NCBI GenBank assembly: GCA_020722085.1 | Contig: DYLN01000021.1 | Coordinates: 1-36,808, forward strand | From: Melioribacter roseus | GTDB lineage: Bacteria; Bacteroidota; Ignavibacteria; Ignavibacteriales; Melioribacteraceae | Length of the DNA stretch: 36,808 bases | Direction: 5' to 3' | Shown here: piece after piece, positions 20,135 through 36,451 of the stretch | Layout of the letters: each line of letters begins with the position of its first letter | How positions within the stretch are numbered: position 1 is the first letter of the stretch | Made by a program: the position numbers and the translations under genes | Notes under the pieces: generated by a model | Told to the model about the DNA's origin: nothing | Seen by the model: only the letters and a program-made list of their open reading frames with translations | The model's database searches: none

Positions 20135-23100
20135 CTAATTATTAACTAGTTTCGAAATAAATATTTCGTATTTATAACCCGATTCATCCGATAATCTCTT
20201 TACATTGCGATACTTCTCAAAAGTTTCTTTTATCAGGGTTACTCTTTCCGTAGAATCATTATCACTCTGATGTCGGATACTCTCTTCATCGATTTTGTAA
20301 ATGAGATAAAGCGAGAACAACCAGTTTAGCAGCACTTCAAAATTTTCTTTGCTGTAATAAATAATTCCTTCGTATTCATTTACGCCGATAAATTTTTTGA
20401 TAACCGGTTTCTCAAGAATATCAATCAACTTGCCATAACCGGTAGGTTGAATTAATAAATCATTCACAACATTATTATCAAAAATACTTACACACACTTC
20501 AGAGGTTTCCCGTAAACAATTCAAAAGCAATAATTCGTGGTAAACTTCTGCTTCACCTCTGCCTAATCTTTTCAAAATATTTCTGATTGGCTTATCGAGC
20601 AGCAATTCATCGATAAAATCTTTGTTAGTAACAAATTCTCCTTGAGCTATTGTTTTCTCTATGCTCGAAATAATTAACCACATTATAAAAAGAACCGAAT
20701 TCTCTTTATAATTCGTATCGACGCTCATAACTATCGCTTTATGAAGTTCATGGTTCAACCGGTTGTTATCTATCTCGAAATTCCGTTCTAAAATGTTATT
20801 TATTTTTTTTACGGCAATAATTTGATTATCAAATTGATTTAATATTTCTTTAGTACCATCGATAAAACCGAAATGTTCATTAATACTTTTTAACAGCCGG
20901 CTAAACTTTTTATCAATAAATATTGCCTTATCTTTTTTCCCTTTCTTTTCATTCCCGTTAAGGACGCAAGTTTTAATAAATCCTTCTATAGATTCTTCAT
21001 CAAACATTTGTTCAAATGCAGAATGGACCGGTTCAAGTTTTATTTCAGCTAAAGCTCTCGAAATACTTGGCACCCCTCTACCTTGCAATTTTTTAATCAA
21101 TTTATCGAAATCCCCTTTATCATCATAAATTTCTTTGAAACCGAAATACACCTGATGTTTGAAAGCGTGCAGCTCAGTTTCAAATCCGTTCCTAAAAAAA
21201 TCTTCACCTGATTTAACAAATTCCATATTGGATACATGTTCTCGGAATAAATAAAAATAGTTCTTAGAGGGTTTAAGATCCAATGCCTCCGCAAAAGTCT
21301 TTGTCTGCTGTTTATCGTTTACAAGTTTAGCAGTTGAACGATAAATTTTACCGGCTGTGTATTCATATTTATTATTATAAAAAACCAGCGTACGCTCGCC
21401 GTGCTCCATATTAGTGTAAGCAAAAACATTTTCATTGACATTTCCGTTGCTGTCAATAAAATCGAACAGCCAAAAATTTTCTACACCGGCAAACAAATAA
21501 CGTTTCTTTAAGAGAGGAAATATTTCTCTTTCGTGTCTTTCCACCAACCATTGCTGCGGTGCTTCGTAATAGTATGCGCGCTGGTATTCCATCCCATATT
21601 TTTCAGTAAAGCCTTCTATTTGTCCGTGTGCAAACATCGGCAGTCCGGGTAATGTTACCATTAAAACACACACACCAAAATATTTATCGTCTGTACCGAA
21701 TTGCTTTATAGCAGTTTCTTCATCGGGATTGCTCATAAAGTTAACGTACCGTTTCAAAATTTCCGGCTCGAATTCAAGAGTATTCGAAATTAGGCCCCGG
21801 TATTTTGCATTTTCTTCTTTCATCATCATGTGCATGAAAGCAGAATTGTAAACTCTGTGCATGCCAAGAGTTCGAACAAAATAACCTTCCATTAGCCAGA
21901 AAGCTTCGGCAAGCAGCAAGGTATCCGGCATCTCGGAGTTAATTCTATCCACAACTTCGCGCCAAAACTCTTTTGGAAATAGTTTATCAAAATCATTTTG
22001 ATCCATGGAGAAATCCGAACGTGACGGAATATCGCCGCCTTTACCCGGAGCCGGATACCATAATCGTGAGAAATGTCGCTTGGTTAGAGTCATTGCAGCA
22101 TCGAAGCGAATGATGGAAAACTTTCTTGCAACCTCTAATATTTTTTGAATTACCGCTTCCCGTACTTCAAGCTTAATCATATCAAGTTGTGCAGTATCGT
22201 TCCAGGGCATATTTGTCCCGTCATTGCCATGATAAATATACCGTACTTCACCGCTTCTATTATTAATTCTCTGAAAAACAACAGCAGCATCAGAACGATT
22301 CCAGTAGCGGTCTTCTATTCTGATCTGAATTGAAGGGTCATCGGAAAGATCCGGTCCTGTAAAGCTATAATTCGGAAACGGCGGATAATTTGTTTGAATA
22401 AAATATTCAGGATGCTCGATAACCCACTTTGAAAATATTCCGGTATGATTCGGCACCATATCACTTGCAAGACGAATTCCTCTTTTACGTGCTCGCTCAT
22501 TCAAATTATTGTAAGCATTTTCTCCGCCAAGATCTACAGCAATTTGATAATCATACAGCGAATATGCAGAGGCAACAGCATCAATATTTCCTAATATATG
22601 TTTAATTTTTTTTGATGCATTACTTCTCTCCCAAATTCCAATCAACCATAATCCATTAAATCCCCAAGCAGCAAGCTGGTCGAGTTCTTCATCTGGAATT
22701 TGATCTAGACTTCTTATGTGCCGTTGATATTTCTTTGACAATTGATCGAGCCACACGTAAGTATTTTTTGCAAGAAGAACAACTTTTGGCATCCAGTCAA
22801 TATCCGGCGTAAAATTTTTCAATTCTTCGTAGTCTTTCCAAATATCCTCTGCATATCTATAACCCGATTTTCCTAACGATAAGAAACCGGCGTCTTCCAT
22901 CTTACCTTTGAATTTAGGAACAACTGTCGGCGCTCCGTCTCCCCCAAAAAATTCAAAGCGGTAATCTTCTTTTATCAAATCCCTGCTCTGCAAAATTCTC
23001 TTCCCGAACTTTTCTTTGATCAACACTCCCCACCGTTCAAAAATAAAATCGAGCTGGAATTCAAAATTATCGGGACTCTGAAGTATCGGGGTTTTTAAGA

Positions 23101-23761
23101 ATGAAAATATATCCTGGCTGTCGGGACCAAATTTTTTCTCTTCCTGAAAAAACTTATCAAGTTTATTAATAGTTTTATCGAAAATCTTTGTATCGGAAAG
23201 ATATCCAGCGTCAAACAATTCTTTAAGTCTTGCGTTTGCAGAATTTATATTTGCAAAATAAAGAAGCAACAACTCTTCGAGTACAATTTCAATATTAGGT
23301 TTACTTTCGGTGAACCCGTTCAGGTAATCAAAAATTCCGATCTTGCGGTTGTAAACATCCAACGGCGGAAAAATTTCGTTAAAATTAAAAAGCAGCTTTT
23401 GTAATTGCTCGTCTCCGATTTCATCACTTAAATATTCGACAGCTCTTTTAAATACATTAGGATTAACATTGGTTTCATATTCTCTTAATAAAAAATGATA
23501 AATCTCGTCTATGAGTCCCATTGCATTTACTTCCCCGGCTTTAACATGCTCGCTTACGTTTCTTTTTGAATTAATCTTTTGAACGAAGAGACGTACAGAC
23601 TTAAAATCGGAAAAGATCACATTGCCTGTTATCGAAAAAAGTTCATTATCAAATTGGTACTTTTCTCTAATCTCTTTAGCAATGTGAAACTCAAATTTCG
23701 GCTGCTTCAATTGGGAAAAATTAGATGCAATGAAATATTTAGATGTGATTGTTAATAACAT
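20135..23761 (-). CDS. Large multidomain GH13 alpha-amylase-superfamily protein
   Basis: A 1208-residue protein without a signal peptide, so probably cytosolic. Residues about 325-800 are the GH13 (beta/alpha)8 barrel. Region I is DMVPNH (Asp434, Asn438, His439), region II is IRFDAAM with nucleophile Asp554 and Arg552, and region III is LLLAEAFW with acid/base Glu619. Region IV reads SNPDE (677-681), where Asp680 would be the transition-state stabiliser; the usual NHD histidine is replaced by Pro, as in GlgE-type NTPD. About 320 residues precede the barrel and about 400 mostly helical residues follow; neither part is recognised. It may act on intracellular alpha-glucan or maltose phosphate. 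The reaction cannot be assigned. Confidence 0.85.
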   Translation of the reverse strand: MLLTITSKYFIASNFSQLKQPKFEFHIAKEIREKYQFDNELFSITGNVIFSDFKSVRLFVQKINSKRNVSEHVKAGEVNAMGLIDEIYHFLLREYETNVNPNVFKRAVEYLSDEIGDEQLQKLLFNFNEIFPPLDVYNRKIGIFDYLNGFTESKPNIEIVLEELLLLYFANINSANARLKELFDAGYLSDTKIFDKTINKLDKFFQEEKKFGPDSQDIFSFLKTPILQSPDNFEFQLDFIFERWGVLIKEKFGKRILQSRDLIKEDYRFEFFGGDGAPTVVPKFKGKMEDAGFLSLGKSGYRYAEDIWKDYEELKNFTPDIDWMPKVVLLAKNTYVWLDQLSKKYQRHIRSLDQIPDEELDQLAAWGFNGLWLIGIWERSNASKKIKHILGNIDAVASAYSLYDYQIAVDLGGENAYNNLNERARKRGIRLASDMVPNHTGIFSKWVIEHPEYFIQTNYPPFPNYSFTGPDLSDDPSIQIRIEDRYWNRSDAAVVFQRINNRSGEVRYIYHGNDGTNMPWNDTAQLDMIKLEVREAVIQKILEVARKFSIIRFDAAMTLTKRHFSRLWYPAPGKGGDIPSRSDFSMDQNDFDKLFPKEFWREVVDRINSEMPDTLLLAEAFWLMEGYFVRTLGMHRVYNSAFMHMMMKEENAKYRGLISNTLEFEPEILKRYVNFMSNPDEETAIKQFGTDDKYFGVCVLMVTLPGLPMFAHGQIEGFTEKYGMEYQRAYYYEAPQQWLVERHEREIFPLLKKRYLFAGVENFWLFDFIDSNGNVNENVFAYTNMEHGERTLVFYNNKYEYTAGKIYRSTAKLVNDKQQTKTFAEALDLKPSKNYFYLFREHVSNMEFVKSGEDFFRNGFETELHAFKHQVYFGFKEIYDDKGDFDKLIKKLQGRGVPSISRALAEIKLEPVHSAFEQMFDEESIEGFIKTCVLNGNEKKGKKDKAIFIDKKFSRLLKSINEHFGFIDGTKEILNQFDNQIIAVKKINNILERNFEIDNNRLNHELHKAIVMSVDTNYKENSVLFIMWLIISSIEKTIAQGEFVTNKDFIDELLLDKPIRNILKRLGRGEAEVYHELLLLNCLRETSEVCVSIFDNNVVNDLLIQPTGYGKLIDILEKPVIKKFIGVNEYEGIIYYSKENFEVLLNWLFSLYLIYKIDEESIRHQSDNDSTERVTLIKETFEKYRNVKRLSDESGYKYEIFISKLVNN

Positions 23762-31053: not shown

Positions 31054-33669
31054 ATGTCAATTACTCCCTTAATGACGCAATACAGTAAGATCAAACAAAG
31101 CTATCCAGATACAATTTTGTTATTCAGGGTAGGTGATTTTTTTGAGACTTTTGAAGAAGATGCAAAAACTGCTTCCAAGGTTCTGGGGATTACTTTGACC
31201 AAACGTGCAAACGGTGCCGCCGGCGAAGTACCGCTTGCCGGCTTTCCCCACCACGCAATTGATTCATACCTCCCAAAACTTGTTAGAGCTGGCTATCGTG
31301 TGGCAATCTGCGAGCAAATGGAAAATCCGAAATTTGCAAAAGGAATTGTTAAGCGCGAAGTAATTGAAGTCGTAACACCCGGTGTCGCATTATCCGACCG
31401 CCTGCTCGACCACAAAAAAAATAATTATCTGCTTGCAATTTATCTTGAAGATGAAATTGCCGGTTTGTCTTTCAGCGATGTTTCCACCGGTGAATTTTTT
31501 GCTTACGAAGTTTACAGAAATGAAATAAAAGAGCAGCTTGGACTTATCAATCCTTCCGAAATTTTAATACCGAAAAAAAATAAAAACGAACTGGAGCCTT
31601 TAATTCAAAAATTTTCCCCCAACTGCAGAATTACAAAACTAGATGATTGGATTTTTACTTTTGATTTCGGGAATGAACTTCTTCTCAATCATTTCAACAC
31701 AAAAACGCTAAAAGGTTTCGGTATTGAAAAACTGAGGGCTGGAATTTGTGCAGCGGGAGCCGTATTAAATTATCTCAAAGAAACACAAAAAGTCGCACTC
31801 ATACATATAAATAAAATCTCCCTTTACAATCCTTCCGATTATATGATGCTGGACAATTCGACAAAAAGAAATCTCGAAATAATGTACACCATGCAGGAAG
31901 GCGAACGTGAAGGCTCGTTAATTTCCATACTTGATAAAACTCTTACACCCATGGGCGGACGCATGCTCAAAAAATGGATCACTGCCCCGCTGCGAAAATT
32001 AACCCCGATATTAAAACGTCAGGAAAGTGTTGAGGAACTTTTTAATAAAAAACATCTCCGTAAAAATATTCAAAATGAATTAAAAGAGATTGGAGATTTA
32101 GAAAGACTAACTTCAAAAGTTTGTACCGGAAGGGTAAATCCACGTGAATTAGTTTTTCTAAAAACTTCACTCAAAAAAATTCCGCTCTTAAAACAACTCC
32201 TCGACCAGGCAGACTGCGAAACATTAAGTCAAATAAATGAGAGACTGAAACCGCTCGAAAATGTTGTAGAAAAAATTGAACTGGCAATAAGTGATAACCC
32301 GCCGGCAAGTTTTAACGAAGAAGGAATAATCCGTTACGGCTACAGTGCCGAACTGGATGAACTGCGTGATCTTTCTTCCCACGCCAAAGATTGGATCGCG
32401 GCACTTCAAAAATCCGAAAGAGAACGAACAAAAATCCCTTCTTTAAAAGTAAGCTACAATAAAGTTTTCGGCTATTACATCGAAATCAGCAACGCACATA
32501 AAGAGAAGGTGCCGGCTAATTACATCCGTAAACAAACTCTCGTAAACAGCGAGAGATATATTACGCCGGAATTAAAAGAATATGAAGACAAAATTTTAAA
32601 TGCACAGGAAAACATTGCCGGTCTTGAATCTCAGCTTTTTGATGAAGTAAGAAATTATGCGGCAGCAAGCGCAGAAATTATTCAGGAAAATGCAAGACTG
32701 ATTGCAATGGTTGACTGCTATCAGTCATTGGCGGAATGCGCTGATCAGTATAATTATGTTAAGCCGACTTTAAACGAAACCGACACAATTGAAATTGTCG
32801 ACGGACGGCATCCGGTAGTTGAACGAATAATGCCGCCTGGTGAAAAATTCGTTCCAAATAGCTGCAGACTTTCGTGCAGCGACGATCAAATCATAATTTT
32901 AACCGGACCGAACATGGCTGGCAAATCCGTTTACCTTCGTCAGACAGGCTTGCTTGTTCTTATGGCTCAGACCGGTTCGTTTATTCCGGCTAAAGAAGCT
33001 TCGATTGGATTGGTTGATAGAATTTATACACGTGTTGGTGCAAGCGACAATATCATTGCCGGTGAAAGTACTTTTCTTGTAGAAATGCAGGAAGCTGCAA
33101 ACATCTTAAATAATGCTACAAACAAAAGTTTGATTCTGTTAGATGAAATCGGGAGAGGTACAAGCACATTTGACGGCATTTCAATTGCATGGGCAATAAC
33201 AGAATATCTTCATGAAAATCCGGTTGTCCAGGCAAAAACGCTTTTTGCAACCCACTACCACGAATTGAATGAGATGGCTTCAATTTTCCCGAGAATAAAA
33301 AATTATAAAGTTGAAGTGAGAGAATACGGCGACAAAGTAATATTTCTTCACAAAGTTTCATCCGGCGGAGCCGATCATAGTTACGGAATTCAGGTTGCAC
33401 AAATGGCGGGTCTTCCGAATTTTGTTACCGACCGCGCTAAGGAAATTCTCTTTAATCTTGAAAGCAAAGAATTAACTCCATACGAAATAAAGAAAGCAAA
33501 ACTTGCGAAGTTCAAAAACCAGGATGATATGCAAATTAATATGTTTGAAATAAAAGACGACCGGCTGCGAAAAGAAATTTCCGATATCTCGCTTGATAAC
33601 TTAACTCCTCTTGAAGCACTTAACAAATTAAACGAATTGAAAAAGAAGGTTGATGAGAAAAAAGATTAA
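31054..33669 (+). CDS. mutS: DNA mismatch repair protein MutS
   Basis: Recognises mispairs and starts mismatch repair. The 871-residue protein has the MutS1 mismatch-binding motif F-x-E within GDFFE (27-31), a connector and lever region in the middle with SYNKVFGYYIEISN, and a C-terminal ABC-type ATPase: Walker A GPNMAGKS at 618-625, Walker B LLDEIGRGTS with Asp697-Glu698, and the FATHYHEL switch. No endonuclease (Smr) domain is attached, so it is not MutS2. The ATG at 31054 is supported by the homologous N-terminus. A TTGACA-like box at 30963 is a weak promoter candidate. The stop overlaps the next gene by 17 bases. Confidence 0.98.
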   Translation: MSITPLMTQYSKIKQSYPDTILLFRVGDFFETFEEDAKTASKVLGITLTKRANGAAGEVPLAGFPHHAIDSYLPKLVRAGYRVAICEQMENPKFAKGIVKREVIEVVTPGVALSDRLLDHKKNNYLLAIYLEDEIAGLSFSDVSTGEFFAYEVYRNEIKEQLGLINPSEILIPKKNKNELEPLIQKFSPNCRITKLDDWIFTFDFGNELLLNHFNTKTLKGFGIEKLRAGICAAGAVLNYLKETQKVALIHINKISLYNPSDYMMLDNSTKRNLEIMYTMQEGEREGSLISILDKTLTPMGGRMLKKWITAPLRKLTPILKRQESVEELFNKKHLRKNIQNELKEIGDLERLTSKVCTGRVNPRELVFLKTSLKKIPLLKQLLDQADCETLSQINERLKPLENVVEKIELAISDNPPASFNEEGIIRYGYSAELDELRDLSSHAKDWIAALQKSERERTKIPSLKVSYNKVFGYYIEISNAHKEKVPANYIRKQTLVNSERYITPELKEYEDKILNAQENIAGLESQLFDEVRNYAAASAEIIQENARLIAMVDCYQSLAECADQYNYVKPTLNETDTIEIVDGRHPVVERIMPPGEKFVPNSCRLSCSDDQIIILTGPNMAGKSVYLRQTGLLVLMAQTGSFIPAKEASIGLVDRIYTRVGASDNIIAGESTFLVEMQEAANILNNATNKSLILLDEIGRGTSTFDGISIAWAITEYLHENPVVQAKTLFATHYHELNEMASIFPRIKNYKVEVREYGDKVIFLHKVSSGGADHSYGIQVAQMAGLPNFVTDRAKEILFNLESKELTPYEIKKAKLAKFKNQDDMQINMFEIKDDRLRKEISDISLDNLTPLEALNKLNELKKKVDEKKD

Positions 33670-34324
33670 AAATATCAGGACACAAATTCTCACCTATGTA
33701 TCTGCGTATATCAGTCCTATCTGCGTTATCTGTGTTCTATTTCTATCCACAGGCTGTCAAAAAAATTACTCCCCCGAACAAAAAGAATACATTGCTGGGA
33801 TCGAAAAGGAACGACATGATAAAAACGAATACATGAAAGACAATCCCAATTCCCCTTTCAATTATAAAAGGAAAATGGAATTTCACGATTTGAATTATTT
33901 CGATGTAGATCCGGCATTTGTATTTAAAAGTAAACTTTACGAATATAATCCAAAAGATACAATCACTATATACGGTACAAAAGGAGAACCAAGAAAAGTA
34001 GTGAAATACGGTTATGTTAAAATAAAATTCCCTAAGCATGAAGAGCCGCTAAACATAAATGTTTATGAAGGGAAAGCCGTTAACGGAGAAACCTATTACA
34101 GCATTTGGTTTACGGATAAGACAACAAACGAAGAATCTTACGGTGTAGGAAGATACATCGATTTCGAAAAATCAGACAACCCGGATTACGTCTACACAAT
34201 TGATTTTAACTTAGCCTACAATCCGTACTGTGCATACAGTCCAGAATATTCCTGTGCAATACCTACAAAAGAAGATTACATACCAGTAGAAATTAGAGCT
34301 GGAGAGAAAAAATTTCACGAATAA
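33653..34324 (+). CDS. DUF1684-family lipoprotein
   Basis: Predicted envelope lipoprotein of 223 residues. A basic N-terminus (MRKKIKNIR) and hydrophobic stretch end at LSTGC with lipid-modified Cys35; Ser rather than Leu is at the -3 position, slightly off the usual lipobox. The mature part matches DUF1684: FVFKSKLYEYNPKDTITIYGT, GRYIDFEK and the highly conserved DFNLAYNPYCAYSPEYSCAIP with closing RAGEK. Function of the family is unknown. The ATG at 33653 overlaps the mutS stop by 17 bases; a TTG one codon earlier is possible. Codons 23-30 of the signal peptide coincide with a dispersed repeat. It lies 3 bases before the DAHP synthase gene. Confidence 0.83.
   Translation: MRKKIKNIRTQILTYVSAYISPICVICVLFLSTGCQKNYSPEQKEYIAGIEKERHDKNEYMKDNPNSPFNYKRKMEFHDLNYFDVDPAFVFKSKLYEYNPKDTITIYGTKGEPRKVVKYGYVKIKFPKHEEPLNINVYEGKAVNGETYYSIWFTDKTTNEESYGVGRYIDFEKSDNPDYVYTIDFNLAYNPYCAYSPEYSCAIPTKEDYIPVEIRAGEKKFHE
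33719..33741 (+). repeat. Copy B of the mutS-flanking phrase, inside a signal-peptide sequence
   Basis: This 23-base stretch pairs with copy A at 30840-30862 in inverted orientation (19 of 23 identical). It encodes residues 23-30 of the DUF1684 lipoprotein, reading ICVICVLF. The preceding bases from about 33696 carry related wording (ATCTGCGTATATCAGT). Confidence 0.45.
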
Positions 34325-34327
34325 AAT

Positions 34328-35353
34328 ATGGAGAATAACGTGGTAGTAATACTTGAGAAAAACATATCATCCGAACAAGTAGATAAAATAATTCATACAC
34401 TTGAAAGCTACGGATTTCAAGTTCACAAATCTGTGGGTGTTGAAAAAACAATTTTAGGTGCTATCGGAGTTCAGCCGGATTTCGATACCCGCAAAGTTAA
34501 AATTTTAGACGGTGTTGCAGATGTATATCGTGTAACCACCCCATACAAACTTACCAGCAGAAATTTCCACGAAGAAAATAGCCTAATTAAAATTAAAGAT
34601 GTTGAGATAGGCGGCAATCAAATTGCATTAATAGCCGGACCGTGTTCGATTGAAAATGAAGATCAAATATTCCGGCTCGCAAAAATTGTTGCGGATTCAG
34701 GTGCTAAAATTTTACGTGGCGGTGCATTTAAACCGAGAACTTCTCCTTACTCTTTTCAAGGATTAGGCGAAGAAGGACTGAAATTAATTCGTGCAGCAGC
34801 AGATGAGTTTAATTTACTCGTAATAACCGAAGTGATGCAGATTGATCACATCGATTTAATTGGTAAATACACCGATATTTTTCAGGTCGGTGCGCGCAAC
34901 ATGCAAAATTTCGCTTTGATTAAAGAACTTGGCAAAGTTGACAAGCCGGTAATGCTAAAAAGAGGGATTGCTGCGACAATTGAAGAATGGCTGATGTCTG
35001 CCGAATATATTTTATCTAACGGAAACAGAAAAGTTCTTTTGTGTGAAAGAGGAATCCGTACATTTGAAACTTACACACGAAATACATTTGATCTGTCGGC
35101 AATTCCGGTAGTTCATAAAAAAAGCCATTTGCCTGTAATTGCAGATCCTTCGCACGCAACAGGAATACGTGATCAGGTTCCGCCGATGGCAAGAGCCGCA
35201 ATAGCTGCCGGTGCTGACGGTATAATGATAGAAATTCACGACGACCCAGAAAATGCTTTGTCCGACGGCCCGCAGGCTTTGCTGCCGAATACATTTCTAA
35301 AATTGGTCGACGAACTTAAATTAATTGCACAAGCAATCGGCAGGAAGATTTAA
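34328..35353 (+). CDS. 3-deoxy-7-phosphoheptulonate (DAHP) synthase, type I-beta with N-terminal regulatory domain
   Basis: First enzyme of the shikimate pathway, condensing phosphoenolpyruvate and erythrose 4-phosphate. Residues 1 to about 75 are the ferredoxin-like regulatory domain found in Thermotoga-type enzymes, where tyrosine or phenylalanine inhibits. The barrel begins near 95 with AGPCSIEN (103-110), then KPRTSPYSFQGLG and IADPSHATG. Metal ligands are Cys106, His276, Glu302 and Asp313. The 341-residue length matches the subclass. The gene starts 3 bases after DUF1684 and its stop directly abuts tyrA, so flux into and out of aromatic synthesis is regulated together. aroF or aroG symbols are used loosely for this class. 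Confidence 0.95.
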   Translation: MENNVVVILEKNISSEQVDKIIHTLESYGFQVHKSVGVEKTILGAIGVQPDFDTRKVKILDGVADVYRVTTPYKLTSRNFHEENSLIKIKDVEIGGNQIALIAGPCSIENEDQIFRLAKIVADSGAKILRGGAFKPRTSPYSFQGLGEEGLKLIRAAADEFNLLVITEVMQIDHIDLIGKYTDIFQVGARNMQNFALIKELGKVDKPVMLKRGIAATIEEWLMSAEYILSNGNRKVLLCERGIRTFETYTRNTFDLSAIPVVHKKSHLPVIADPSHATGIRDQVPPMARAAIAAGADGIMIEIHDDPENALSDGPQALLPNTFLKLVDELKLIAQAIGRKI

Positions 35354-36451
35354 GTGGAAATAAAAAAAATATCCATACTTGGTTTGGGACTCATCGGCGG
35401 CTCGCTGGCAAAAGCGTTTAAACAGAATAAAAAAAATCTTTCTATTCATGGATTCGACAGAAAAGCAGTATTGGAAAAAGCTTTTGAAGATGGAGTAATC
35501 GATTCATTCAGTGAAAACGCCGATGAAGCTTTACAATCGGATGTAATTTTTATTTGCCTGCCTGTCGATGCTTCGCTGGAATATTTCAAAAAATTTTTAG
35601 AAAAATTAAATGCCGGTCAAATTATTACAGACGTTTGCGGCGTAAAAACTGTTTTTCAGAATACATGGAATGAAAAACCGAGAAAGGGATTTTATATCGG
35701 CGGACATCCGATGACCGGCAAGGAAACCGGCGGATATGAAAATTCCGATCCGTTTTTGTTCGAAAACAGCATCTATATTTTAAATGAAGATGCAAAAAAA
35801 TTCTCGGTAACAGAATCATTAATAAATTTACTGAAACTTACAGGAGCAAGAATTACCTTTTTAACTCCGAAAGCACACGATATTATTATTGCATCGGTAA
35901 GTCACCTCCCACAATTATTATCCGTTGCTTTAATTAATTCGGCAAGCTTAAAAGACAGCGACAAAAATTTTTTTGATTTCGCTGCAGGCGGTTTCAGGGA
36001 TATGACAAGAATTGCTGCAAGTGATTTTATTATTTGGGAAGATATCTTTAAACATAACAAAAGAAACATCGATATTGCCGTGGATAATTTCATAAACGAT
36101 CTGCAGCAAATGAGGAATTCGATTAACAAAGATGATTACGAAAGCATTCATCAAAGATTTGAAAACGCACGCATTAAACGCGATGAAATACCGAAAGCAA
36201 ACAAAGGATTTATAAATCCGCTCGTTGACATTTTTATATCAGTTAAGGACGAACCAGGTGTGCTAAGTAAAATTACTACGGAATTATACAAAGCCGGAAT
36301 TAACATTAAAGATATCGAACTACTAAAAGTGCGTGTCGGCACCGGCGGCACATTCAGGCTCGCATTTGAGAACAAAATAATTGCAGACAAAGCACGACAG
36401 GTAATCGAACAAGCGGGTTTCACCGCAATTTTTTCGCACAAAGATGGATGA
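35354..36451 (+). CDS. tyrA: Prephenate dehydrogenase with C-terminal ACT domain
   Basis: Oxidative decarboxylation of prephenate to 4-hydroxyphenylpyruvate for tyrosine. The NAD motif GLGLIGGS is at 10-17, HPMTGKETGG includes His118, SHLPQLLS includes His184, and GGFRDMTRIA carries the substrate-side arginines. Residues about 291-360 form an ACT domain (SVKDEPGVLSKITTEL... INIKDIEL), so feedback by tyrosine is expected. The start is GTG at 35354, immediately after the TAA of the DAHP synthase gene; no ATG is nearby. The 365-residue length fits ACT-containing TyrA. It is the last gene of the mutS-DUF1684-DAHP synthase run. Confidence 0.94.
   Translation: MEIKKISILGLGLIGGSLAKAFKQNKKNLSIHGFDRKAVLEKAFEDGVIDSFSENADEALQSDVIFICLPVDASLEYFKKFLEKLNAGQIITDVCGVKTVFQNTWNEKPRKGFYIGGHPMTGKETGGYENSDPFLFENSIYILNEDAKKFSVTESLINLLKLTGARITFLTPKAHDIIIASVSHLPQLLSVALINSASLKDSDKNFFDFAAGGFRDMTRIAASDFIIWEDIFKHNKRNIDIAVDNFINDLQQMRNSINKDDYESIHQRFENARIKRDEIPKANKGFINPLVDIFISVKDEPGVLSKITTELYKAGINIKDIELLKVRVGTGGTFRLAFENKIIADKARQVIEQAGFTAIFSHKDG

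Follow-up and report, generated by a model that had tools for sequence, protein, structure and literature searches.

The window, a 36,808-nucleotide stretch of Melioribacter roseus DNA, carries on its minus strand a gene for a 1208-amino-acid GH13 protein (20135..23761) that has the motif NPDE in region IV and is a putative glycogen branching enzyme; we refer to it and its relatives, found at 71 loci with this motif, as the NPDE family. The open reading frame is real, as is its GH13 assignment from a sequence-only reading: PF00128 is the sole Pfam match above cut-off (residues 358–720, E = 6.9e-10, 39.2 bits versus 22). No NCBIfam model came near its cut-off, the weak matches being to models of the alpha-amylase MalA and of TreY, and the sequences of solved structures gave weak GH13 matches (best E = 0.00028), with a weak GlgE match among them. 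Twenty other open reading frames of the window looked ordinary in Pfam, and the 16 matches to a sigma-70 pattern were at chance level.

All parts of the protein described here lie on the minus strand. The catalytic barrel spans residues ~331–740 (21542..22771), as judged from PF00128 and conservation. Sequence and alignment place region I (DMVPNH, residues 434–439) at 22445..22462, region II (IIRFD) with R552-F-D554 and the predicted nucleophile D554 at 22100..22108, and region III (LLAEAFW) with the predicted acid/base E619 at 21905..21907. Region IV (SNPDE; N678-P679-D680-E681, at 21719..21730) contains D680, the predicted transition-state stabilizer, and has Pro at the position of the His typical of GH13 enzymes. 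Since [S/N]NPDE was present in all 71 loci read (66 by pattern, the other five by eye), the region-IV Pro is a trait of the family. Residues D434, N438, H439, R552, D554, E619, N678, P679, D680 and E681 were invariant in 29 of 29 sequences aligned from across the phylum, consistent with the intact Asp554/Glu619/Asp680 triad and the unusual SNPDE that had been read from the window.

Mean column conservation in the 29 diverse sequences was 0.79 in the barrel, which had 155 invariant positions, 0.48 in the N-terminal part and 0.31 in the C-terminal part. Such strong constraint on the barrel argues for a protein that would be an active enzyme. Alternatively, the loss of the region-IV His and the large non-catalytic flanks could point to a catalytically inactive scaffold or regulator that binds glucan. 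However, conservation is highest in the barrel, where decay would be expected in a scaffold, and no variation was seen in the three acids, in R552 or in the region-I NH, so we regard this explanation as highly improbable.

The flanks reached no Pfam or NCBIfam cut-off, in line with the sequence-only reading, which had found them unlike anything familiar. Structure prediction, the check proposed for the N-terminal part, gave a confident, all-helical model of residues 20–271 (22949..23704; pLDDT 88.7, pTM 0.88) with no match in the PDB: the best Foldseek hit had E = 0.27, with none at E up to 0.001, and the best VIA-align hit to solved structures had Z = 2.8, with none at Z of 5 or more. This helical domain may represent a new fold, though lack of a match is no proof of one. 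The model of the whole protein (mean pLDDT 71.4, pTM 0.48) has a beta-rich region after the barrel (residues ~741–880; 21122..21541), in the position where domain C of GH13 enzymes usually sits, followed by a long, weakly conserved helical region (residues ~881–1208; 20138..21121). If the beta-rich domain is modeled correctly, the C-terminal part without a match would comprise ~330 residues, rather than the ~400 originally estimated. The barrel, a (beta/alpha)8 fold in GH13, was itself poorly modeled, with parts under pLDDT 50, probably because the 42 input sequences are so alike there, but its best fold matches were still GH13 chains. TreS ranked first for the whole-protein model (Z = 11.6), and neopullulanase, GlgE and branching enzymes also appeared; these are generic GH13 chains, so fold comparison assigns no subfamily.

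The gene is widespread among relatives of the window's genome. A strong match (best E at or below 5.6e-52), in some cases in pieces, was present in every one of 58 genomes searched across the family and order, among them the genome of the window, and a scan of genome contigs yielded 50 loci whose titles mostly name Melioribacter, Ignavibacteria or Bacteroidetes. One contig titled Candidatus Aminicenantes encodes a family member (L064:5407-8931) that is 53% identical to the window's protein; perhaps it belongs to a misnamed or misbinned MAG. Eight plasmid records matched 31–38% of the query at 24–27% identity, none at full length, and none of the 48 pattern matches in viral contigs proved to be a relative.

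The GH13 tree comprised 48 sequences (15 of the NPDE family, 13 of a group of 490-amino-acid paralogues, six GlgB and 14 others), with reference sequences from E. coli and the own genome, one GlgE and five further GlgB. The NPDE family, the paralogue group and GlgB each fell on one side of a branch (support 100/100, 99/97 and 100/100, respectively), and the NPDE family joined the paralogues (100/99), not GlgB; deeper joins are unsure because many end branches are long. The protein thus forms its own clade, in agreement with the earlier suggestion of an uncharacterized GH13 lineage. Within the tree, one member from the window's class, in family f10 (L116:7586-11110), grouped with six members from outside the class (95/100), a position that may fit transfer between lineages.

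The paralogues share with the NPDE family the motif WLxGxW and a D-E-E after the region-IV Asp, but they have the canonical ENHDE, lack the helical N- and C-terminal regions and occur also in genomes with GlgB. This uncharacterized sister group, represented by L002:1330-2802:- (C94 of the own genome) and by L159–L170, has no signal peptide. GlgB resembles the 1208-residue protein in its GH13 barrel, in region I (D-x-V-P-x-H; DWVPGH in GlgB versus DMVPNH), in the D-E pair of region IV (SHDE in E. coli GlgB versus NPDE), in the function that we propose and in the place it occupies in the distribution described below. It differs in forming a separate clade and in having the region-IV His, and the NPDE protein adds helical N- and C-terminal regions to its barrel while lacking GlgB's accessory parts: CBM48 and the GlgB C-terminal all-beta domain were absent from its Pfam matches, and the branching-enzyme model TIGR01515 from its NCBIfam matches, up to E = 1. 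Loss of the region-IV His is not known to occur in any branching enzyme. The GH57 branching enzyme, which shares the proposed function and occupies the corresponding place in further families of the class, belongs to a different glycoside hydrolase family, and neither its barrel nor its BE_C domain (PF09210) matched the 1208-residue protein.

The sequence-only reading had been reminded of GlgE (GH13_3), and the resemblance holds for the catalytic triad and for the change of His to Pro in region IV (FWPNTPD in the GlgE at L144), although the motif itself is NTPD in GlgE and NPDE here. A GlgE-like maltosyltransferase, elongating glucan with maltose 1-phosphate as donor, could also account for the weak GlgE matches in both sequence and fold searches. 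Kinship, however, was not supported: the GlgE N-terminal domain (PF11896) had no match in the protein, region I keeps the NH that is missing in the L144 GlgE, the nearest relatives are the ENHDE paralogues, and the distribution is unlike that of GlgE. Among 197 class genomes, the GlgE N-domain occurred in a single one (G061, family f7; L144:1378-3468), which does not carry the NPDE family and also has GlgB. Moreover, GT5 synthase is present in 192 of these genomes, and carriers of the NPDE family lack GlgB, named as the partner that accompanies GlgE in the part of a review available to us (PMC11046441). Kinship with GlgE was therefore set aside on domain content, the GH13 tree and distribution, and a GlgE-like activity seems very unlikely.

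The genomic pattern points instead to glycogen branching, a reading absent from the original description of the gene. In the literature passages available, two families of branching enzyme are described, GH13 (GlgB) and GH57 (PMC11046441, PMC6629080). A single draw of 197 class genomes contained the NPDE family in 65 (carriers being defined by a match with E at or below 1e-97), GlgB in 64 (E up to 1e-100) and, in another 61, the C-domain of the GH57 branching enzyme (E up to 1e-10), with pairwise overlaps of 0, 0 and 0; weaker copies of GlgB and the GH57 enzyme would be missed at these cut-offs. Exactly one of the three was present in 190 of the 197 genomes and none in seven (G125, G134, G151, G159, G173, G195 and G210), six of which belong to families where the remaining genomes do have one. 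Of the 26 families in which any of these enzymes occurs, eight have the NPDE family, six GlgB and 12 the GH57 enzyme, and none was mixed. Weaker matches to the NPDE protein, all with E above 1e-25, were left uncounted (10 of 75 in the class and 25 of 152 in the phylum); those inspected were other GH13 proteins or fragments, and one, in G439, belongs to a carrier family, f33.

The exclusion extends to the phylum, the one phylum that the survey covers. Among 345 genomes, 127 had the NPDE family and 160 had GlgB, with an overlap of 0 versus 58.9 expected if the two were independent. The GH57 enzyme was found in 22 of 259 phylum genomes (assumed to fall within the 345, with 42 of them named), and none of the 22 was a carrier. 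Neither the NPDE family nor GlgB was present in 58 of the 345, GH57 genomes among them, and some phylum genomes have, as far as seen, none of the three enzymes.

GT5 glycogen synthase was matched in 192 of the 197 class genomes. Three of the five genomes without a match are carriers, all in family f10 (G111, G145 and G149), one of which is listed as 100% complete. Since related genomes are not independent, we built a tree of the class glycogen synthases, taking 56 from many more GT5 matches (20 from carriers, 20 from GlgB genomes and 16 from GH57 genomes) and leaving out three taken for second copies (L174, L177 and L210); families f9, f16, f17, f20, f21 and f24–f27 lie outside this tree. On the best tree of the remaining 53 synthases, the type of branching enzyme requires seven changes, four of them of the NPDE family, which occupies four places; bootstraps gave three to four changes for the NPDE family, and the best supported branches force two. 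A first, quicker tree that included L174, L177 and L210 required nine. The family-level and tree tests lessen the effect of kinship without removing it.

The own genome is listed as 99.94% complete and narrows the candidates. It contains nine GH13 open reading frames, seven of which begin with signal peptides (judged by eye) and score as amylase-, pullulanase- or cyclomaltodextrinase-like. None of the nine came near the GlgB cut-off, the best branching-enzyme score of the signal-bearing frames being 117 bits versus 741, and the GH57 BE_C domain was not found in this genome. Only the 1208-residue protein and the 490-residue paralogue lack a signal peptide; because genomes with GlgB (G069, G077, G191 and G240) contain the paralogue too, the 1208-residue protein is left as the branching candidate. 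No signal peptide was visible by eye at its N-terminus, as had been noted before, and it probably acts on internal glucan. The genome encodes two GT5 synthases. In the available portion of the M. roseus genome paper, two glycogen synthases are named and the term "branching enzyme" occurs once, about a CBM48 domain (PMC3534657).

Alternatively, the protein may be some other intracellular alpha-glucan enzyme, such as a 4-alpha-glucanotransferase, an amylase or a debranching type, that shares its distribution with a branching enzyme still unseen. All of these activities are possible with GH13 chemistry, the nearest relatives are uncharacterized amylase-like proteins, and the weak matches to MalA and TreY models lean the same way. 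However, this explanation would leave 65 genomes of the class without any branching enzyme and would need a further unseen enzyme to account for the three-way exclusion, and the own genome already has a MalQ 4-alpha-glucanotransferase as well as secreted amylases. We consider it unlikely, though less so than either a scaffold or a GlgE-like role.

In the gene neighborhoods, no glycogen genes were seen adjoining the NPDE gene. The commonest neighbor in the 71 loci was a divergent mutS (32 loci), followed by adjoining genes, likewise divergent from the GH13 gene, namely a DUF1684 gene (25) and two more (23 and 21). In the window, mutS, DUF1684 and the two further genes lie at 31054-36451, with a his operon between them and the GH13 gene; the his genes formed no cluster in the other loci. 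Ten neighbors from other loci comprised seven ordinary Pfam families and three proteins unmatched at 1e-10, with no glycogen gene among them.

Carriers lack both known branching enzymes and the NPDE protein was never seen beside either, and we therefore think it likely that the 1208-residue protein, as a GH13 transferase in the cytoplasm, introduces branches into alpha-1,4-glucan and so takes GlgB's part where both GlgB and the GH57 enzyme are absent. It is the distribution, and only this, that speaks for branching, and the activity is a prediction. Counted against it are the lack of adjoining glycogen genes, the distance from GlgB in the tree, the absence of GlgB domains, the three f10 carriers without a GT5 match, the phylum genomes with none of the three enzymes, the restriction to one phylum, the loss of the region-IV His and the non-independence of the genomes.

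If it is a branching enzyme, it could work by the retaining double displacement usual in GH13, the activity and every step of which we infer. Asp554 would attack an alpha-1,4 linkage in a donor chain that GT5 glycogen synthase has produced, with Glu619 as acid/base and Asp680 stabilizing the transition state. The chain held by the enzyme would then pass to the C6 hydroxyl of an acceptor chain, creating an alpha-1,6 branch. The region-IV Pro may favor transfer over hydrolysis, the same change being present in the transferase GlgE, and the helical N- and C-terminal regions may serve instead of the CBM48 of GlgB in binding glucan chains.

The family also appears to reach phototrophs. A chlorosome protein was present in five of six carrier genomes tested (three of f33, one of f31 and one of f46) and absent in one of f35, so that f33, f31 and f46 probably represent green sulfur bacteria and allied Chlorobi. 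In f33, at least 66 genomes have the NPDE family, and f33 is absent among the GlgB matches. According to the part of a review available to us, Chlorobium limicola makes its storage glycogen from ADP-glucose, and this glycogen has alpha-1,6 branches (PMC11269200). In green sulfur bacteria and allied lineages, the NPDE protein is probably what introduces the branches into glycogen.

More broadly, and with slightly less assurance than for the function of the protein itself, we favor the view that the NPDE family, non-orthologous to the two known types, evolved independently as a third class of glycogen branching enzyme in bacteria, with a region-IV Pro, an N-terminal helical domain of unmatched fold and a helical C-terminal region. 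On this view it has traded places several times with GlgB and the GH57 enzyme, and it would supply the branching activity so far missing in green sulfur bacteria and Ignavibacteria. Titles and abstract openings, with few subscription journals among them, yielded no report of such an enzyme or of a third class. The account of two families cited above also infers an undiscovered branching activity for TACK archaea (PMC11046441/PMC6629080, seen in part). If the NPDE family is indeed a third kind, whole lineages with glycogen synthase, chlorosome-bearing ones included, would have the step they now lack accounted for, and a function would be assigned to a protein whose sole match is the general alpha-amylase family. 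Its accessory architecture would be new among branching enzymes, and it would set a precedent for other groups that have glycogen but no known branching enzyme.
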